This document shows positions 7,777 to 31,294 of a stretch of 33,329 bases of DNA, one piece after another. Both the position numbers and the translations under genes were made by a program. The notes beneath the pieces were generated by a model, which saw only the letters and a program-made list of their open reading frames with translations, made no database searches and was not told the origin of the DNA. The stretch comes from a virus. The stretch's first letter is position 1, and each line of letters begins with the position of its first letter. Location of the stretch: the IMG/VR virus record IMGVR_UViG_3300037882_000126, positions 1 through 33,329 of that record, one strand, 5' to 3'.

Positions 7777-7928
7777 TCGACTTCTCTTTCTAATTTATCT
7801 GCGTTGTCTTCAATCCGATCACTAAACATCTCTACTAGCTCCTCGCTTGTTACTTCGAGTAGCTCCAGCAGTACTTCTTCTGGGATTTGTTTTAGTCGGT
7901 CTTTTATTTCCACTAGTGTCAAGGGCAT
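7773..7928 (-). CDS. Small acidic protein overlapping the GT gene
   Basis: This 51-aa protein begins MPLTLVEIKDRLKQIPEEVL and is rich in Glu and Leu, probably helical. The start at 7928 is chosen because it has a very strong ribosome binding site (GGAGGAGATATGTA-ATG); a longer in-frame version would lack one. It overlaps the end of the upstream glycosyltransferase by 107 bases in the +1 frame and ends in ATGA shared with the reductase start, so it probably helps couple translation. Function unknown. Its IPEEVLLELLEVTSEELVEMF pattern looks like a small protein-binding helix bundle. Confidence 0.7.
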   Translation of the reverse strand: MPLTLVEIKDRLKQIPEEVLLELLEVTSEELVEMFSDRIEDNADKLEREVE

Positions 7929-8889
7929 TACATATCTCCTCCGTCTTAAAATGTTTAAGTGCTTCATTTAGTCCGTCTTCCCAATTATCGAACCACACAG
8001 TTTTCATTGTATCATACCAGTACGTAGTGTCACCTTTAGGATACCATCTCCAGCACGATAGTTTCTCACCGCCAATTAAATTAGCGACAGGAACACCTAC
8101 CGAGCCAGCGATATGTGCGATTGCGGAATCTACAGAGATAACTCCGTCCAATGCTTGAACTTTGTCAGCTGTATCAACCCATAATTCGGAAGTTAAGTAA
8201 CCACCTTCTTGTTGCAGATTAACCCATTCAAACTCAGGATGTTCAGCGATGAACTTATCCATGATTTCTTTAGGCATCTGCTTTGCCTTCATGTTCCAAC
8301 TGGTGTTGGTAGTGGTATAACAGTATCCTATCATAGGTTTGTCGTGTTTTTCTTGACTTAGATCAAGATTCCTAAATATACCTTCTGCACCATAAATGTG
8401 CGCCACTGGCTTAGCTGGCAACACACCATGTTCCATAAGGCAATAAGGAATAGACATCACTTTGAGCCGAATACCGTTCTTAACTTCCTGTTCCATGTCA
8501 TAGAAACCGTCATGGTTGGGAAGCCTACGAAGCAGCTTTAGAATCTGCCGAGGAAAAGCCAGCTTAACTGACTTAGCCCCTGCTTCTTTTAACAACGGAA
8601 TGAAGCGACTGAACTGAATCATATCACCCCAACCAGCCTCACACCAGACTACGATGTTCTCTCCTTTAATGTTCATGCCTGGAATCCAGACACGCATCTT
8701 ATCGAAGTTAGACTTAACACCGTACACTGGGGTAAGGTTCGGAAGAGACCGCAACTCATGTAGATAGAAACCGTATTCCCAGTTCCCTTCTTTAATAAGT
8801 CGTTGTCCTTTCTGATAGGCTGGATTAGCATCTTCTTGATTAGTTACAGCGTAGAAGTTAATCCGTCGATGCTTATTTAATTCAATCAT
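7822..8889 (-). CDS. GT9-like glycosyltransferase with basic C-terminal extension
   Basis: This 355-aa protein has the hallmarks of the GT-B, heptosyltransferase-like domain often found after TPR repeats: ENIVVWCEAGWGDMIQFSR (residues 77-95) and VDSAIAHIAGSVGVPV (253-268) with the downstream CWRWYP segment (279-284). It probably transfers a sugar from a nucleotide donor, with the acceptor unknown (host surface glycan, virion protein or DNA). The recognisable domain ends near residue 315. The last 35 residues are Arg/Lys/Ser/Thr-rich and are encoded wholly within the overlap with the next gene, so they look like an overprinted tail. It overlaps the DUF3310 gene by 8 bases at its start. Confidence 0.75.
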   Translation of the reverse strand: MIELNKHRRINFYAVTNQEDANPAYQKGQRLIKEGNWEYGFYLHELRSLPNLTPVYGVKSNFDKMRVWIPGMNIKGENIVVWCEAGWGDMIQFSRFIPLLKEAGAKSVKLAFPRQILKLLRRLPNHDGFYDMEQEVKNGIRLKVMSIPYCLMEHGVLPAKPVAHIYGAEGIFRNLDLSQEKHDKPMIGYCYTTTNTSWNMKAKQMPKEIMDKFIAEHPEFEWVNLQQEGGYLTSELWVDTADKVQALDGVISVDSAIAHIAGSVGVPVANLIGGEKLSCWRWYPKGDTTYWYDTMKTVWFDNWEDGLNEALKHFKTEEICNALDTSGNKRPTKTNPRRSTAGATRSNKRGASRDV

Positions 8890-13810: not shown

Positions 13811-14476
13811 TCATCTTACTAAGTGCTCATACTTGTTGTCAACAAATATAATGTTTGCACCGCAACGAATCAGAGGAAAGTAGTTGTTTTCACCCAACAG
13901 TGTGCTAACCGCATCTGCATAGTTGAATTTATCAAGACCACCTACTTCCGCACAGATTAGCTTAAACGGAAATCGCTCAAAGTCAATGCTGTCAAGAATA
14001 TCGTAGTCGAGACCTTCCACGTCAATCGTAAGAAAATCAGGAACAGCTTTATTGCTTAAAACTTGAGCAACTGTCATTACTGGTAATTGACGAACATCTC
14101 TAATGCTGAACTCTGGGTGCTCTAATACAAATGCCTCTACTGTAGCGTGATCGAAGGAGTTACGACCAGAATGTTCATCTACCATGTAAAAGTCTAAGAA
14201 GCCAGATTCTGTACCGACACCAAAGTTTAGGTTTACATCTAGTGGTCGATCAACCATGAACTGTGTAAACAGGTACGGATTAGCTTCTACGTTGATACCA
14301 CGAGAGCCAGCATCGTAGAACAGTTTAGTGTTGCTAATGTTAGTAGGGTGATGTGCTCCGATGTCTAGGTAAGATGGATTATCAATACCCAGATTATCGA
14401 AAACAGCCCGAATAACAAGATCATCTCCATGTTGTGCATACGTTACTCCTCCGAATCGTTGGTCAGGGTGTGTCAT
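13811..14476 (-). CDS. FkbM-family methyltransferase
   Basis: This 221-aa protein has the SAM-binding motif I SYLDIGAHHP (residues 35-44), an acidic residue at the next strand (INVEANP, E64) and the FkbM signature LTIDVEGLDYDIL (149-161). The family usually O-methylates sugars or polyketide-like molecules. In a phage this may modify host surface glycans, virion glycans or a nucleotide sugar. It is embedded in the replication operon directly upstream of polymerase, overlapping the previous gene by ATGA. The GT9-like gene lies in the same operon, so a shared glycan target is possible but unproven. Confidence 0.82.
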   Translation of the reverse strand: MTHPDQRFGGVTYAQHGDDLVIRAVFDNLGIDNPSYLDIGAHHPTNISNTKLFYDAGSRGINVEANPYLFTQFMVDRPLDVNLNFGVGTESGFLDFYMVDEHSGRNSFDHATVEAFVLEHPEFSIRDVRQLPVMTVAQVLSNKAVPDFLTIDVEGLDYDILDSIDFERFPFKLICAEVGGLDKFNYADAVSTLLGENNYFPLIRCGANIIFVDNKYEHLVR

Positions 14477-18766: not shown

Positions 18767-19012
18767 TTAACGATCTGCATAGACATCATCATAGTAATCA
18801 TCATTGTTAGCGTTATAGTCGGAAAGATCATCTTCATCTTGGTATCCACCAATGTCAGATTCATGTAGTAAATCCTTACGATCAGAATGAATGATAACGG
18901 TGTCCATAGCGACATAGCAGTCTTGGCATATGTCTAGGTACTGTCCAGTGATTAAATGCTTCCTAGTGGCTTCATAGTCGTTCAGTGAAGCATTGCAAAT
19001 AGTACATCTCAT
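18767..19012 (-). CDS. Zinc-knuckle protein with acidic tail
   Basis: This 81-aa protein has ribosome binding site AGGAGAATTAAA-ATG. Two CxxC pairs (C3-C6 and C29-C32) separated by about 22 residues form a probable treble-clef or zinc ribbon, with ATRKHLITGQYLDICQDCY between and around them. The C-terminal 30 residues are Asp/Tyr/Asn-rich (DEDDLSDYNANNDDYYDD), an acidic tail like those of DNA mimics or SSB-type docking tips. Similar small zinc proteins are common in phage early regions. Function unknown. Confidence 0.7.
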   Translation of the reverse strand: MRCTICNASLNDYEATRKHLITGQYLDICQDCYVAMDTVIIHSDRKDLLHESDIGGYQDEDDLSDYNANNDDYYDDVYADR

Positions 19013-19027
19013 TTTAATTCTCCTTAG

Positions 19028-19171
19028 TTAATTACAAATGATGGTTTTACCATCGTTACAAACACTGCATACTACCATAGACCCATCTGGTGCAATGATG
19101 GTGATAGGTCTACAAGAAGCGTAAGCCGACACACTCACACATAGGCACATAGCGACATAGAGGTATTTCAT
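19028..19171 (-). CDS. 47-residue exported cysteine-rich peptide
   Basis: The frame begins MKYLYVAMCLCVSVSAYASC, a clear signal peptide with an AYA-S cleavage site or a degenerate lipobox, and continues with a mature part containing four cysteines (C20, C35, C38, C46) and an IIAPDGSMVVCSVC segment. AAAGGAGAATTACT-ATG is a strong ribosome binding site. The mature peptide of about 28 residues is likely disulfide-bonded in the periplasm. Function unknown; an anti-host or exclusion role is only a guess. Confidence 0.7.
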   Translation of the reverse strand: MKYLYVAMCLCVSVSAYASCRPITIIAPDGSMVVCSVCNDGKTIICN

Positions 19172-19572: not shown

Positions 19573-19656
19573 TTAAGTAAACCAGAATAAATACAGTTCT
19601 TTTATTTTGGCTAGCCATCGCTCTACTGGGGAGCAATCATCGGGAGGGAAAATCAT
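19573..19656 (-). CDS. Possible 27-residue peptide after the amidotransferase
   Basis: The frame MIFPPDDCSPVERWLAKIKE then LYLFWFT begins with the ATG that overlaps the amidotransferase stop (ATGA) and ends just before the terminator stem. A GGGAG lies 12 bases upstream, a little far. It is short and the codon signal cannot be judged, so this is tentative. If real it is the last member of the amidoligase operon and might be a substrate or a regulator. Confidence 0.35.
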   Translation of the reverse strand: MIFPPDDCSPVERWLAKIKELYLFWFT

Positions 19657-20684
19657 TGGTAAGCCATCTCCCTTTCTTTTTCGATAGCCTTCTCTTCAGC
19701 GATCAAAAACGGGAATGATTCTCTAGCTATTTTGAAATCCGACATGATTTTTATAAACCAATCTTCATCTATCTCGCTCTCCATCGCCATCGCCACAATG
19801 TCTAGGAATGAATCAAGTCCAAAAGTCCGAGCAAATGATCTAGCCTGATAGATCGCCAGAGAGCCAGCTTTATAAAGTCCCATCTCCATCAAATCATCTA
19901 AAGCCATATAGAGATCGTCCTCTAAATCTTTTGGAGCAATCCCATAGCTCTGGTTCTCCCAGTGGGATTCGTAGTCATAGCCGTAGTTGTTTTGCCATCT
20001 TGGAGCCGTCCCATAGCCCTTAGCGGAGTATGTTGGTTTAGGTGCTGGGTCTTCGTTTACTTGCGCTTGCGCTAGCTCTGGGCTTGCGTCATAAGTCTTG
20101 GTTGCCGTAGGGCTTGCTGTCCATGCGTAAGTATTGGAGAGCCACAATCCTCCCCAGTAAACCCCAGCGGATTCGTTGATCGTCACAAGTCTGTTCTGGT
20201 TATCCATCAGCACGAATTTATTGCTAGCGCCTATATGGGATTCGATCAAATCCTGAAATTCTGGAGTGATAAAAAAGTCTGGATTGTTTGCCAGCATTGG
20301 GCGCAAGTAGTCACGGATATAGTGCCAAGTGTCCGACTTGGTAGTGTCCTTTTTATTGTCGGTGTGCAATATGCCGTTGTGCATGAGCCAGAGATCAATG
20401 CCGTGTTGCTTAGCGTTCAGAACTTCGTAGGGGTGACAGTTCTCTAGGTCAGTCGCTCCGTGGGTTCTCATGCGTAGGTGAAATGCACAGTCCTTTCCAG
20501 CGATATGGGAGTAATAGAAATTTACAAAATCGTCCGCTGTTTTTGGTAAGCATTTTTCGATTACCAGAGATTCGCCTTCGGTGTACATAACCCCGACCCC
20601 GTCAGAGTTGCTAGAGTAAAAATCCTTGAGCCAGCTTTCAGAGAGTGCTGGGGAGTTGCTTAATTGAGTGACTAATAAACACAT
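19653..20684 (-). CDS. Class II glutamine amidotransferase
   Basis: This 343-aa protein begins MCLLV, so removal of Met exposes the N-terminal Cys nucleophile (C2) of the Ntn-hydrolase GATase class II. Matching motifs follow: NSDGVGVMY (26-34), HLRMRTHGATDLENCHPY (69-86) and WLMHNGIL (99-106), which bind glutamine and form the oxyanion hole. The enzyme releases ammonia from glutamine for a partner synthetase or ligase, here the adjacent amidoligase. After about residue 190 there is a Thr/Pro/Tyr/Gln-rich linker and a helical C-terminal domain (about 255-340) of unknown role. The ribosome binding site is AAGGAAAAATAATC. Confidence 0.88.
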   Translation of the reverse strand: MCLLVTQLSNSPALSESWLKDFYSSNSDGVGVMYTEGESLVIEKCLPKTADDFVNFYYSHIAGKDCAFHLRMRTHGATDLENCHPYEVLNAKQHGIDLWLMHNGILHTDNKKDTTKSDTWHYIRDYLRPMLANNPDFFITPEFQDLIESHIGASNKFVLMDNQNRLVTINESAGVYWGGLWLSNTYAWTASPTATKTYDASPELAQAQVNEDPAPKPTYSAKGYGTAPRWQNNYGYDYESHWENQSYGIAPKDLEDDLYMALDDLMEMGLYKAGSLAIYQARSFARTFGLDSFLDIVAMAMESEIDEDWFIKIMSDFKIARESFPFLIAEEKAIEKEREMAYQ

Positions 20685-20702
20685 GATTATTTTTCCTTGA
20701 AA

Positions 20703-22112
20703 TTATTGTTCGTTGGTTGCGAGATCGAAAACTGATTGTTTCTGGGCTTCGGTTCTGGGGTTGCTTTTTATCTTTCCAAGTTCTGGGAGTGCCCAGTTTT
20801 TCTCGGTCAAATATTGGCGCAAAAACTTGGTGTCGCTTAAGTTCTCAGAGCGACAAATAAACTCTAAGAAATTCTCCGTTGTGAGTTGATTAGTGCCAGT
20901 GTCACGACAGAAAAACCAAGTCGCATAGGTGAACTCTAAGCAAGCCATGATCGTGGCATAGCGGAGTGTTCCCCTAAACATTCTGAACTCTACAGTTTGC
21001 TTATTCTGAAAATTCAGAGCTTCGTAACGATCAGCGTTTAAGTATTGAAGATTGTTTTCGCTCTTAGCGTTTTTAAGCCATTCATAGCCAGCCTTTTTAT
21101 TTTTCACTTGGGAATATCTAGAGCTATCCCTCCGAGCCAGAGAGCGAACTAGTCGCTGGTTCCCTGAATCGTTGATAAATAAAACCATCTTCACAGCGTG
21201 AAAAAGCGACATTCCTTTTTTGCAAATATGTACATGAAGTCCGCAAGTCTGGGTGTCATGCGACTTAAGACCACGCAAGGGGTTTTTGAAGTGTTCTAGC
21301 TGTTTAGCGTGTACATCTAAGCCAGTCCAGCCAGTAACCATCTCAAAGCCGTGGTGTAGTGAGCCGTCTGATTCTAGGGCGCAATACCTAGAGCCGTCTG
21401 GAGTAGTGCCTACAGCGTTAATTAAGTCCTGCGCCAAATCCCTGCGATCGTCATAGTCCCCAGAGCGTACCTCCATCTCAAGTTCTAACCCCATGAGTAC
21501 GGGAGTTTTACGATCGTCAAATGAACTAGGAATACGGGACAAAATCCGCTTGCTGGAGTGATATTCGCCTATGACTGAATCGTCCTCTTCGTCCTCCTCC
21601 GCTTGCTCCTCTTCGTACTCTTCGTTAGTAATGTAGGTGTCCTGAAAGTCGCTCCAAGTGTAGTTATCACTGGTACAGCAATCACAAATATGCTCGTTTC
21701 CGTCATGCGCCCAGTGCCCATCATCATCAAGTTCTAACCAGTTGCAATCGTCACAAGTAAACACCTCTGAATATTCTGGGAATTTCTCGTTAAACCAATC
21801 AGCAATCTCTTCGTGGTGTCCCGACCTAGTCCAGCGGTCACGGATTCGCTCGTTATCGTTTAAGAGCCGTCTAGCGGTGTCCCCGTCTTGCGTTGCGATC
21901 AGTTCAGCCAGTGAGTGCCCGACCCGTTGATTCTCTTTTCTATGCTCCGACCAAATGCGTGGATAGCGTTCAAGTTCTGGGGACATCTTTCCGTTTTTGA
22001 AATTGATATTCGCCAGCATGAGATCACGAATTTTTTGCTTACGAACTTCAGGAGCGACTAAGTTGTGTAAGTCTTTTAAGCCTTTGAGTGCTGTTTGAAT
22101 GTTGTATGTCAT
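20703..22112 (-). CDS. Amidoligase (COOH-NH2 ligase) with zinc domain
   Basis: This 469-aa protein has the amidoligase (glutamine synthetase/GCS-like) core: GLELEMEV (208-215; E210, E212, E214), CALESDGSLHHGFEMVT (244-260; E247, D249, E257), CGLHVHI (290-296; H293, H295) and VEFRMFRGTL (374-383). These are the metal, ATP and acyl-phosphate residues of the family, which forms amide or peptide bonds with ATP. An N-terminal part carries a zinc-binding pair (C120, C123, C143, C146) and a very acidic linker (166-178). It is paired with a class II glutamine amidotransferase, as known for this family. The substrate is unknown. The ribosome binding site is CGGAGGTTTTCACC. Confidence 0.85.
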   Translation of the reverse strand: MTYNIQTALKGLKDLHNLVAPEVRKQKIRDLMLANINFKNGKMSPELERYPRIWSEHRKENQRVGHSLAELIATQDGDTARRLLNDNERIRDRWTRSGHHEEIADWFNEKFPEYSEVFTCDDCNWLELDDDGHWAHDGNEHICDCCTSDNYTWSDFQDTYITNEEYEEEQAEEDEEDDSVIGEYHSSKRILSRIPSSFDDRKTPVLMGLELEMEVRSGDYDDRRDLAQDLINAVGTTPDGSRYCALESDGSLHHGFEMVTGWTGLDVHAKQLEHFKNPLRGLKSHDTQTCGLHVHICKKGMSLFHAVKMVLFINDSGNQRLVRSLARRDSSRYSQVKNKKAGYEWLKNAKSENNLQYLNADRYEALNFQNKQTVEFRMFRGTLRYATIMACLEFTYATWFFCRDTGTNQLTTENFLEFICRSENLSDTKFLRQYLTEKNWALPELGKIKSNPRTEAQKQSVFDLATNEQ

Positions 22113-22127
22113 GGTGAAAACCTCCGA

Positions 22128-22247
22128 TTAGATAGAGAGAATTAAGACAAGGCCAAAGTAGAAAACCACAGCCAGAGCCAGAGCTAGCACGACCTCCGAC
22201 CAAGTTACTTCGTTTACACCTACAGCGAGAGCTAATAATTTCAACAT
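22128..22247 (-). CDS. 39-residue membrane peptide leading the amidoligase operon
   Basis: The frame begins MLKLLALAVGVNEVTWSEVV and continues LALALAVVFYFGLVLILSI to a TAA, with a strong GGAGGTTTTAAAA ribosome binding site and one transmembrane helix (about residues 18-39). It is the first gene of the cassette, 15 bp before the amidoligase. The first 17 residues may form a second, amphipathic helix. It could anchor the enzymes at the membrane or be an acceptor for them; both are speculation. Confidence 0.62.
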   Translation of the reverse strand: MLKLLALAVGVNEVTWSEVVLALALAVVFYFGLVLILSI

Positions 22248-30118: not shown

Positions 30119-31294
30119 ATGTCAATCTATCGTGGAGCAGGTGGTTCTGGAGATGCAGTCGCTGACTCATCTAGTGAAGCACTATTAGTTCGTGAATTAG
30201 CAGTCGAAGTTCAAGCCGATGCGGACGCTGCTGCTGCTTCTGCTGCCGCTGCTTCGACCTCAGCCAGCGGTGCATCTACATCTGCGACTAACGCAGCTTC
30301 TAGTGCCACTGCAGCGGCTTCGTCAGCCACTTCTGCAGCATCCTCAGCTTCTGGTGCTTCTAGTTCTGCTTCCGCAGCTGCTACATCAGCATCTAACGCA
30401 GCTACTTCTGCAACAGCAGCTCAAACTGCAGAGACTAACGCAGAGACAGCAGAAACTAACGCTGCAGCTTCAGCAAGTTCAGCTTCTACCTCTGCTTCTA
30501 CAGCAACTACACAGGCAACTAATGCAAGTAATTCCGCAACTGCCGCAGCCACTTCAGCAACAAATGCTTCAAACAGTGCGTCTGCTGCATCCACATCTGC
30601 AACCAATGCAGCAAGCTCAGCTACTACCGCATCAGGAAGTGCTACTTCAGCAGCTTCTTCAGCCTCTAGTGCCAGCACTTCTGCAAGCAATGCAGCTACC
30701 AGCGAAACTAACGCAGCAGCGTCTGCAAGCACAGCAACCACTCAAGCAGGAATAGCAACTACTCAGGCTTCTAACGCTTCTACATCAGCAACAAATGCTG
30801 CCTCTTCCGCTACTGCGGCTTCAGGCTCCGCATCAACAGCTTCTACTGCTGCGACTAACGCAAGTAACTCTGCTTCAGCAGCTTCGACATCAGCAACAAA
30901 TGCTAGTAACTCAGCCTCTGCTGCTGCTACTTCAGCGACTAACGCTGCCAACTCAGCAACACTTGCAGCTTCATACACACCAAGTCAAACAGGTAACTCT
31001 GGTAAGTTCTTAACTACTAACGGTACTGCTACATCTTGGGCTACTGTTGATGCTCTTCCGTCTCAGACTGGCAATGCTGGTGAGTACCTAACTACTGACG
31101 GCACTAATGCTTCATGGGCTGCTTTAGATACCGATGCTAATAGCACAACTAAAGGTTTATACGAGCACAACAGTTCTATTACTACAAATTACACAATCGG
31201 TTCAACAAATAATGCTATGTCGACAGGTCCTTTATCTGTCGCAAGCGGTGTTACTGTTACCGTCCCTAGCGGTCGACGCTGGGTAATTCTTTAA
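30119..31294 (+). CDS. Tail fibre protein with Ala/Ser/Thr repeat shaft
   Basis: This 391-aa protein has AAGGAGTCTGA-ATG. The N-terminal 40 residues (GAGGSGDAVADSSSEALLVRE) lead into about 250 residues of low-complexity Ala, Ser, Thr and Asn in short heptad-like units (SATNAASSATAASS). These presumably form a long fibrous shaft of coiled or trimeric helices. The C-terminal third has two similar strands (SQTGNSGKFLTTNGTATSWAT and SQTGNAGEYLTTDGTNASWAA) and ends in TVTVPSGRRWVIL, a common end of phage tail modules. It probably forms the attachment fibre. Confidence 0.75.
   Translation: MSIYRGAGGSGDAVADSSSEALLVRELAVEVQADADAAAASAAAASTSASGASTSATNAASSATAAASSATSAASSASGASSSASAAATSASNAATSATAAQTAETNAETAETNAAASASSASTSASTATTQATNASNSATAAATSATNASNSASAASTSATNAASSATTASGSATSAASSASSASTSASNAATSETNAAASASTATTQAGIATTQASNASTSATNAASSATAASGSASTASTAATNASNSASAASTSATNASNSASAAATSATNAANSATLAASYTPSQTGNSGKFLTTNGTATSWATVDALPSQTGNAGEYLTTDGTNASWAALDTDANSTTKGLYEHNSSITTNYTIGSTNNAMSTGPLSVASGVTVTVPSGRRWVIL

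Follow-up and report, generated by a model that had tools for sequence, protein, structure and literature searches.

Organization of the operon

The window analysed here is the whole of a virus record of 33,329 bases, whose genes include those for terminase, portal, major capsid protein, DNA polymerase and ribonucleotide reductase; no end repeats were found in it, and the record may be incomplete. On the minus strand, a compact operon (19573-22247) carries, in this order, the genes of a 39-residue microprotein, a 469-residue amidoligase, a 343-residue class II glutamine amidotransferase (GAT) and a 27-residue microprotein, followed by a strong terminator. The first gene (22128-22247), headed by a GGAGG ribosome-binding site, encodes a protein, MLKLLALAVGVNEVTWSEVVLALALAVVFYFGLVLILSI, which its sequence and homologues indicate to be a membrane microprotein with a single span (TM39). 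The amidoligase gene (20703-22112) is separated by 18 bp from that of the GAT (19653-20684), with plausible ribosome-binding sites ahead of both, and the ATG of the last gene (19573-19656; product MIFPPDDCSPVERWLAKIKELYLFWFT, supported by homologues and by the pN/pS of its class) overlaps the GAT stop codon (ATGA). The operon is closed by an intrinsic terminator (19567-19540, minus strand) with a 10-bp stem and a T run, for which folding gave -15.4 kcal/mol (z -3.2).

An initial annotation of this DNA had placed the two large open reading frames at these positions, with the motifs MC, RTHGATDLENCHPY and HNG in the GAT and GLELEME, ESDGSL, CGLHVH and VEFRMFRGTL in the ligase, all of which are present. 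It had also described an operon of two enzymes with its own leader region and terminator. The enzymes and the folding-backed terminator stand, but the supposed leader is partly coding, as it contains the 39-residue frame, and both microprotein genes belong to the operon as well; in fact, the lower limit drawn by the annotation (19573) is the end of the frame overlapping the GAT stop. A leader RNA or riboswitch was rejected, with no Rfam match, and promoter motifs upstream of the operon matched no better than in shuffled sequence. No PADLOC defence family and no specific NCBIfam family was matched.

Elsewhere in the window, an FkbM-type methyltransferase (13811-14476, minus strand) and a protein with a weak, below-cut-off glycosyltransferase 9 match (7822-8889, minus strand) are possibly surface-modifying. 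A 391-residue protein (30119-31294, plus strand), largely made of degenerate repeats rich in Ala, Ser, Thr and Asn, is probably a tail or fibre protein.

The amidoligase and the glutamine amidotransferase

The ligase matches the Pfam family Amidoligase_2 (PF12224; COOH-NH2 ligase, glutamine synthetase-like) with 32.6 bits against a cut-off of 22 (E 1e-7), as well as PHROG amidoligase families. Its AlphaFold model (pLDDT 83.5) matches the structures of YbdK, glutamate-cysteine ligase (GCL) and glutamine synthetase with Z 10-11.5, over a putative catalytic domain of residues 198-441 (20790-21521, minus strand), the N-terminal region being barely probed by these matches; by sequence, no solved relatives were found. 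E210, E212, E247, D249, H293, H295, E375 and R377 are invariant in 50/50 relatives, and F376, between the last two, is kept in 49 of them. The N-terminal part carries a zinc-type ribbon (21675-21755, minus strand) whose four cysteines, C120, C123, C143 and C146, are likewise invariant in all 50. On its profile, its modelled fold and its acidic/His motifs of catalytic type, the protein is assigned to Amidoligase_2. Both this identity and the zinc-type domain had been proposed by the initial annotation, which had also considered that 20703-22112 might match no amidoligase profile, or that the conserved Glu and His residues might be lost on alignment; the match is there, and the residues are kept.

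For the GAT, already annotated as class II, the match to Pfam GATase_4 is below threshold (15.3 bits against a cut-off of 23, E 0.01), and the family is reached through relatives, since the homologue in MW202733 exceeds the cut-off with 26.7 bits. The class is supported by the AlphaFold model (pLDDT 82.8), which shows the class II Ntn hydrolase fold and matches EgtC, GlmS and PurF (Z 9-11), with EgtC (11.0) and GlmS (10.8) tied over residues 2-198 and the helical C-terminal extension barely probed; by sequence, the only solved relative was a marginal PurF match. C2, R71, T74, N103, G104 and D118 are invariant in 51/51 relatives, and R71, N103-G104 and D118 fall, in an alignment made by eye, on what we take to be the glutamine-pocket Arg, Asn-Gly and Asp of GlmS. 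From this fold and these residues, the protein is considered to be a class II glutamine amidotransferase, with glutamine hydrolysis as its predicted activity.

Pairing in viruses and bacteria

When viral contigs were searched with the GAT alone, 72 loci were obtained; the ligase lies directly upstream in 69/69 of those with sequence there, the remaining three beginning at a contig end. In bacteria, the GAT lies just downstream of the ligase in 77/80 loci, while two of the others stop at a contig edge and one (L092) has no GAT. The two genes are essentially inseparable, and this near-obligate pairing, together with prior reports in other phages, agrees with the initial annotation, which had called the pairing known. 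A ligase without an adjacent GAT is found in the C. difficile phage AR1086-1 (L080:3028-6908), where its neighbours are RNA-repair genes (next to RlaP, near kptA). Plasmids gave only four weak matches.

Bacterial copies of the pair often adjoin integrases or relaxases, the clostridial ones often being near relaxases, resolvases and DUF960 genes. Three Polynucleobacter loci (L083-L085), 46-50% identical, hint at a Burkholderiales host; two of them (L083 and L085) adjoin a tyrosine recombinase and have a gene for a relaxase or a coupling protein close by. In a sister clade, a protein of 256-257 residues with weak, below-cut-off similarity to R2K ATP-grasp ligases is encoded a few genes past the GAT (L166:13194-13967, L169:12928-13698).

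An exchangeable slot next to the terminase genes

Phages with a closely related terminase differ in what lies between a small zinc-ribbon gene (18767-19012, minus strand) and the terminase genes. Nine such contigs carry the pair in this slot, and eight related contigs, with flanking genes identified on both sides, are without it; L218 has a terminase 91% and a capsid 98% identical, yet no pair. The slot holds small ORFs only in L230, L231, L233 and L251, the anti-restriction protein ArdC and GP88 in L225, GP88 and HNH in L245, and a C5 DNA methyltransferase in L249. With the whole cassette missing from several close phages, it is accessory, always present or absent as a unit. Absence of the pair from related phages, which the initial annotation had considered as a point against its reading, was seen for the cassette as a whole and not for the pairing itself. 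That genes for anti-restriction and methylation occupy the same slot suggests, by position, a role in conflict, and the position of the cassette mildly favours an early host-conflict role over modification of the virion.

The zinc-ribbon protein at the slot edge (81 residues) is kept in nearly all related phages, and its L218 homologue has no Pfam match. Encoded at 19028-19171 (minus strand) is a 47-residue protein, MKYLYVAMCLCVSVSAYA..., which contains cysteine and seems to have a signal peptide; in several relatives a homologue occupies the interval from the zinc-ribbon gene to the slot, whether the pair is present or not.

Microproteins flanking the pair

In 17 loci, a homologue of the 39-residue protein precedes the ligase, and the 8 that were aligned all keep TWxE and a C-terminal LSI; homologues of the 27-residue protein follow the GAT in 13 loci (class pN/pS 0.42). 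The equivalent positions in relatives are taken by short ORFs of several unrelated families, one class being a zinc ribbon and not membrane-spanning. One of seven modelled families is carried by 29/42 ligase lineages, and none by the other 13. The pN/pS values of six classes (0.21-0.42) indicate that the microproteins are translated and under selection.

In tests devised after the pattern had been seen, with upstream and downstream thresholds of our own choice, a 20-45 residue ORF starts at the GAT stop in 22/39 ligase clusters against 25/209 control gene clusters (p 6.5e-9), and a hydrophobic one in 16/39 against 14/209 (p 2e-7); ligase clusters were used at this lineage level because the GATs, clustered at 70%, collapsed to 10 groups. 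At the level of loci, an upstream hydrophobic microprotein is present in 17/60 against 9/273 controls, and a downstream one in 26/60 against 26/273. The fairest replication is a separate bacterial set, mostly clostridial, with 13/68 against 10/555 controls (p 5e-8), where the downstream limit was widened to +35 post hoc and the statistics ignore kinship.

When the whole viral collection was scanned with three of the families, 26 loci were found (10, 7 and 9), 23 of them in the context of the pair. In the sequence available, three homologues stand without it: beside GP88 (L302:5001-6271), beside small ORFs (L303) and after ArdC (L307:925-2458). Exclusiveness of the microproteins to the pair, suggested by an HMM scan of a set of loci, was rejected on account of these three; what remains is a strong enrichment, seen in phages and again, independently, in the mobile elements of bacteria. 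Microprotein and enzyme look like independent modules sharing one early slot, of which the microproteins, judging from the exceptions, may be general members.

Relation to known systems

The amidoligase (PF12224) and GATase pair has been reported in the OM43 phages MEP401 and MEP402 (PMC10580990), in a work that quotes roles from phiEco32 and Marvin and calls them unexplored. In a profile search, MEP401/MEP402 and mycobacteriophage Marvin showed both genes side by side and ordered as here, with proteins less than 35% identical to the present pair; unlike the operon here, MEP401 and Marvin have no 20-45 residue hydrophobic ORF directly after the GAT. As far as the account of Hardies (2013) given in PMC5498523 goes, RIO-1-like podoviruses have a seven-gene peptidoglycan cassette, and in RIO-1/phiEco32/PSA-HP1-like podoviruses its amidoligase and GAT stand among genes of transcription, DNA metabolism and replication, envelope modification being proposed. 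An annotated cluster of this kind is present in Stenotrophomonas phage StenR_269. The gamma-glutamyl cyclotransferase (GGCT) and the ATP-grasp ligase of RIO-1/phiEco32 had no counterpart in the present, possibly incomplete, record by PF06094 and by R2K_3, the sole ATP-grasp family searched; in the sister clade an ATP-grasp-like gene is nearby. The superinfection idea is repeated in a prophage survey (PMC11318856), and amidoligases are not mentioned in a survey of polyvalent proteins (PMC5512222). The enzyme pair and the idea of cell-wall amidation or superinfection exclusion have both been published for other phages, the idea as a proposal.

EgtA/EgtC, of ergothioneine synthesis, combines a GCL-like ligase with a class II GAT-like Ntn hydrolase, EgtC being a top structural match; to our knowledge, it has no zinc ribbon and no microproteins, and its gene context is different. 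In MurT-GatD of S. aureus, a Mur-ligase-like MurT is joined to a GatD-type GATase, families which differ from those of the pair here. This system offers an analogy, being a two-subunit, glutamine-dependent machinery for peptidoglycan amidation (PMC3267633, PMC5871853). The placing of the pair at an exchangeable site by the terminase genes and the enrichment of hydrophobic microproteins next to the pair both look new; no description of such microproteins was found in the literature checked, which did not extend to the founding analysis (Iyer 2009) or to the paper on Marvin.

Proposed function

The reading which we tentatively place foremost, at slightly less than an even chance, is that this accessory operon encodes a two-subunit, membrane-associated enzyme for glutamine-dependent amidation, which would act in early host conflict on an envelope-associated class of target. 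The fold, the residues and the pairing lead to the amidation reading, the microproteins to the membrane, and the slot and mobile-element context to the use in host conflict. In such a complex, the GAT would release ammonia from glutamine by means of its N-terminal cysteine, and the ligase would activate a carboxylate with ATP and join the ammonia to it, giving a primary amide; acidic groups would probably be capped in this way, using glutamine and ATP. The predicted mass change is about -0.98 Da, and the +113 Da shift that the initial annotation had also offered does not fit glutamine-derived ammonia on a carboxyl. Choice of the target may fall to the zinc ribbon, and the membrane microprotein(s) may place the enzyme at the inner membrane or regulate it there. 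Given such placement, an envelope-associated target, a peptidoglycan precursor or a membrane protein, would be the most likely class; of the candidates offered by the initial annotation (peptidoglycan, a host protein or a virion peptide), none is singled out by the findings. Acting early in infection, a timing to which gene order points, the enzyme could serve host takeover or counter-defence, including the exclusion of competing phages.

The microproteins might instead merely hitchhike in a variable early locus, the pair amidating a cytosolic host protein, an RNA-associated target or a metabolite independently of the membrane. Their occurrence also beside GP88 or ArdC would fit this, as would the N-terminal zinc ribbons, which suggest protein or nucleic-acid binding, and the C. 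difficile phage ligase among RNA-repair genes; nevertheless, hydrophobic microproteins are independently enriched in bacterial, mostly clostridial, loci, and we regard this explanation as rather unlikely. A RiPP-like scheme would make the microproteins the substrates, the ligase amidating or ligating an acidic residue or the C-terminus of a short phage peptide that would then act in the membrane. It is supported by the very small genes that start on or next to the GAT stop, by how strongly they are enriched in phages as well as in bacterial elements, and by an acidic residue conserved by the membrane segment in several classes (the invariant TWxE; an invariant D). However, the families show no relationship among themselves, and one of the classes consists of a zinc ribbon; a class B member (L037) has lost the glutamate, and three homologues come without the two enzymes; moreover, since a class II GAT supplies ammonia, only simple amidation would be expected, and a substrate role appears distinctly unlikely.

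The two enzymes could also oppose each other as in EgtA/EgtC, the ligase making a gamma-glutamyl-type amide and the Ntn hydrolase cleaving it, with no channelling of ammonia. The tie between EgtC and GlmS at the head of the structural matches for the GAT and the likeness of the ligase to glutamate-cysteine ligases point in this direction, but the residues observed are compatible with either chemistry and the tight one-to-one pairing fits a channelling complex, so that we consider this arrangement very unlikely.

Pairs of amidoligase and GATase occur widely, in phages and in mobile elements, and for years cell-wall modification or superinfection exclusion has been put forward again and again as their role. 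To this the association with microproteins and the exchange with anti-restriction genes add clues to the place (the membrane), to the timing (early) and to peptides as anchor or substrate. It is possible, if doubtful, that the amidoligase-GATase modules of mobile elements have three parts, the third being a membrane microprotein dedicated to them as anchor or substrate, and that they would constitute an unrecognised class of envelope-directed counter-defence or phage exclusion, swapping with ArdC and DNA methyltransferases.
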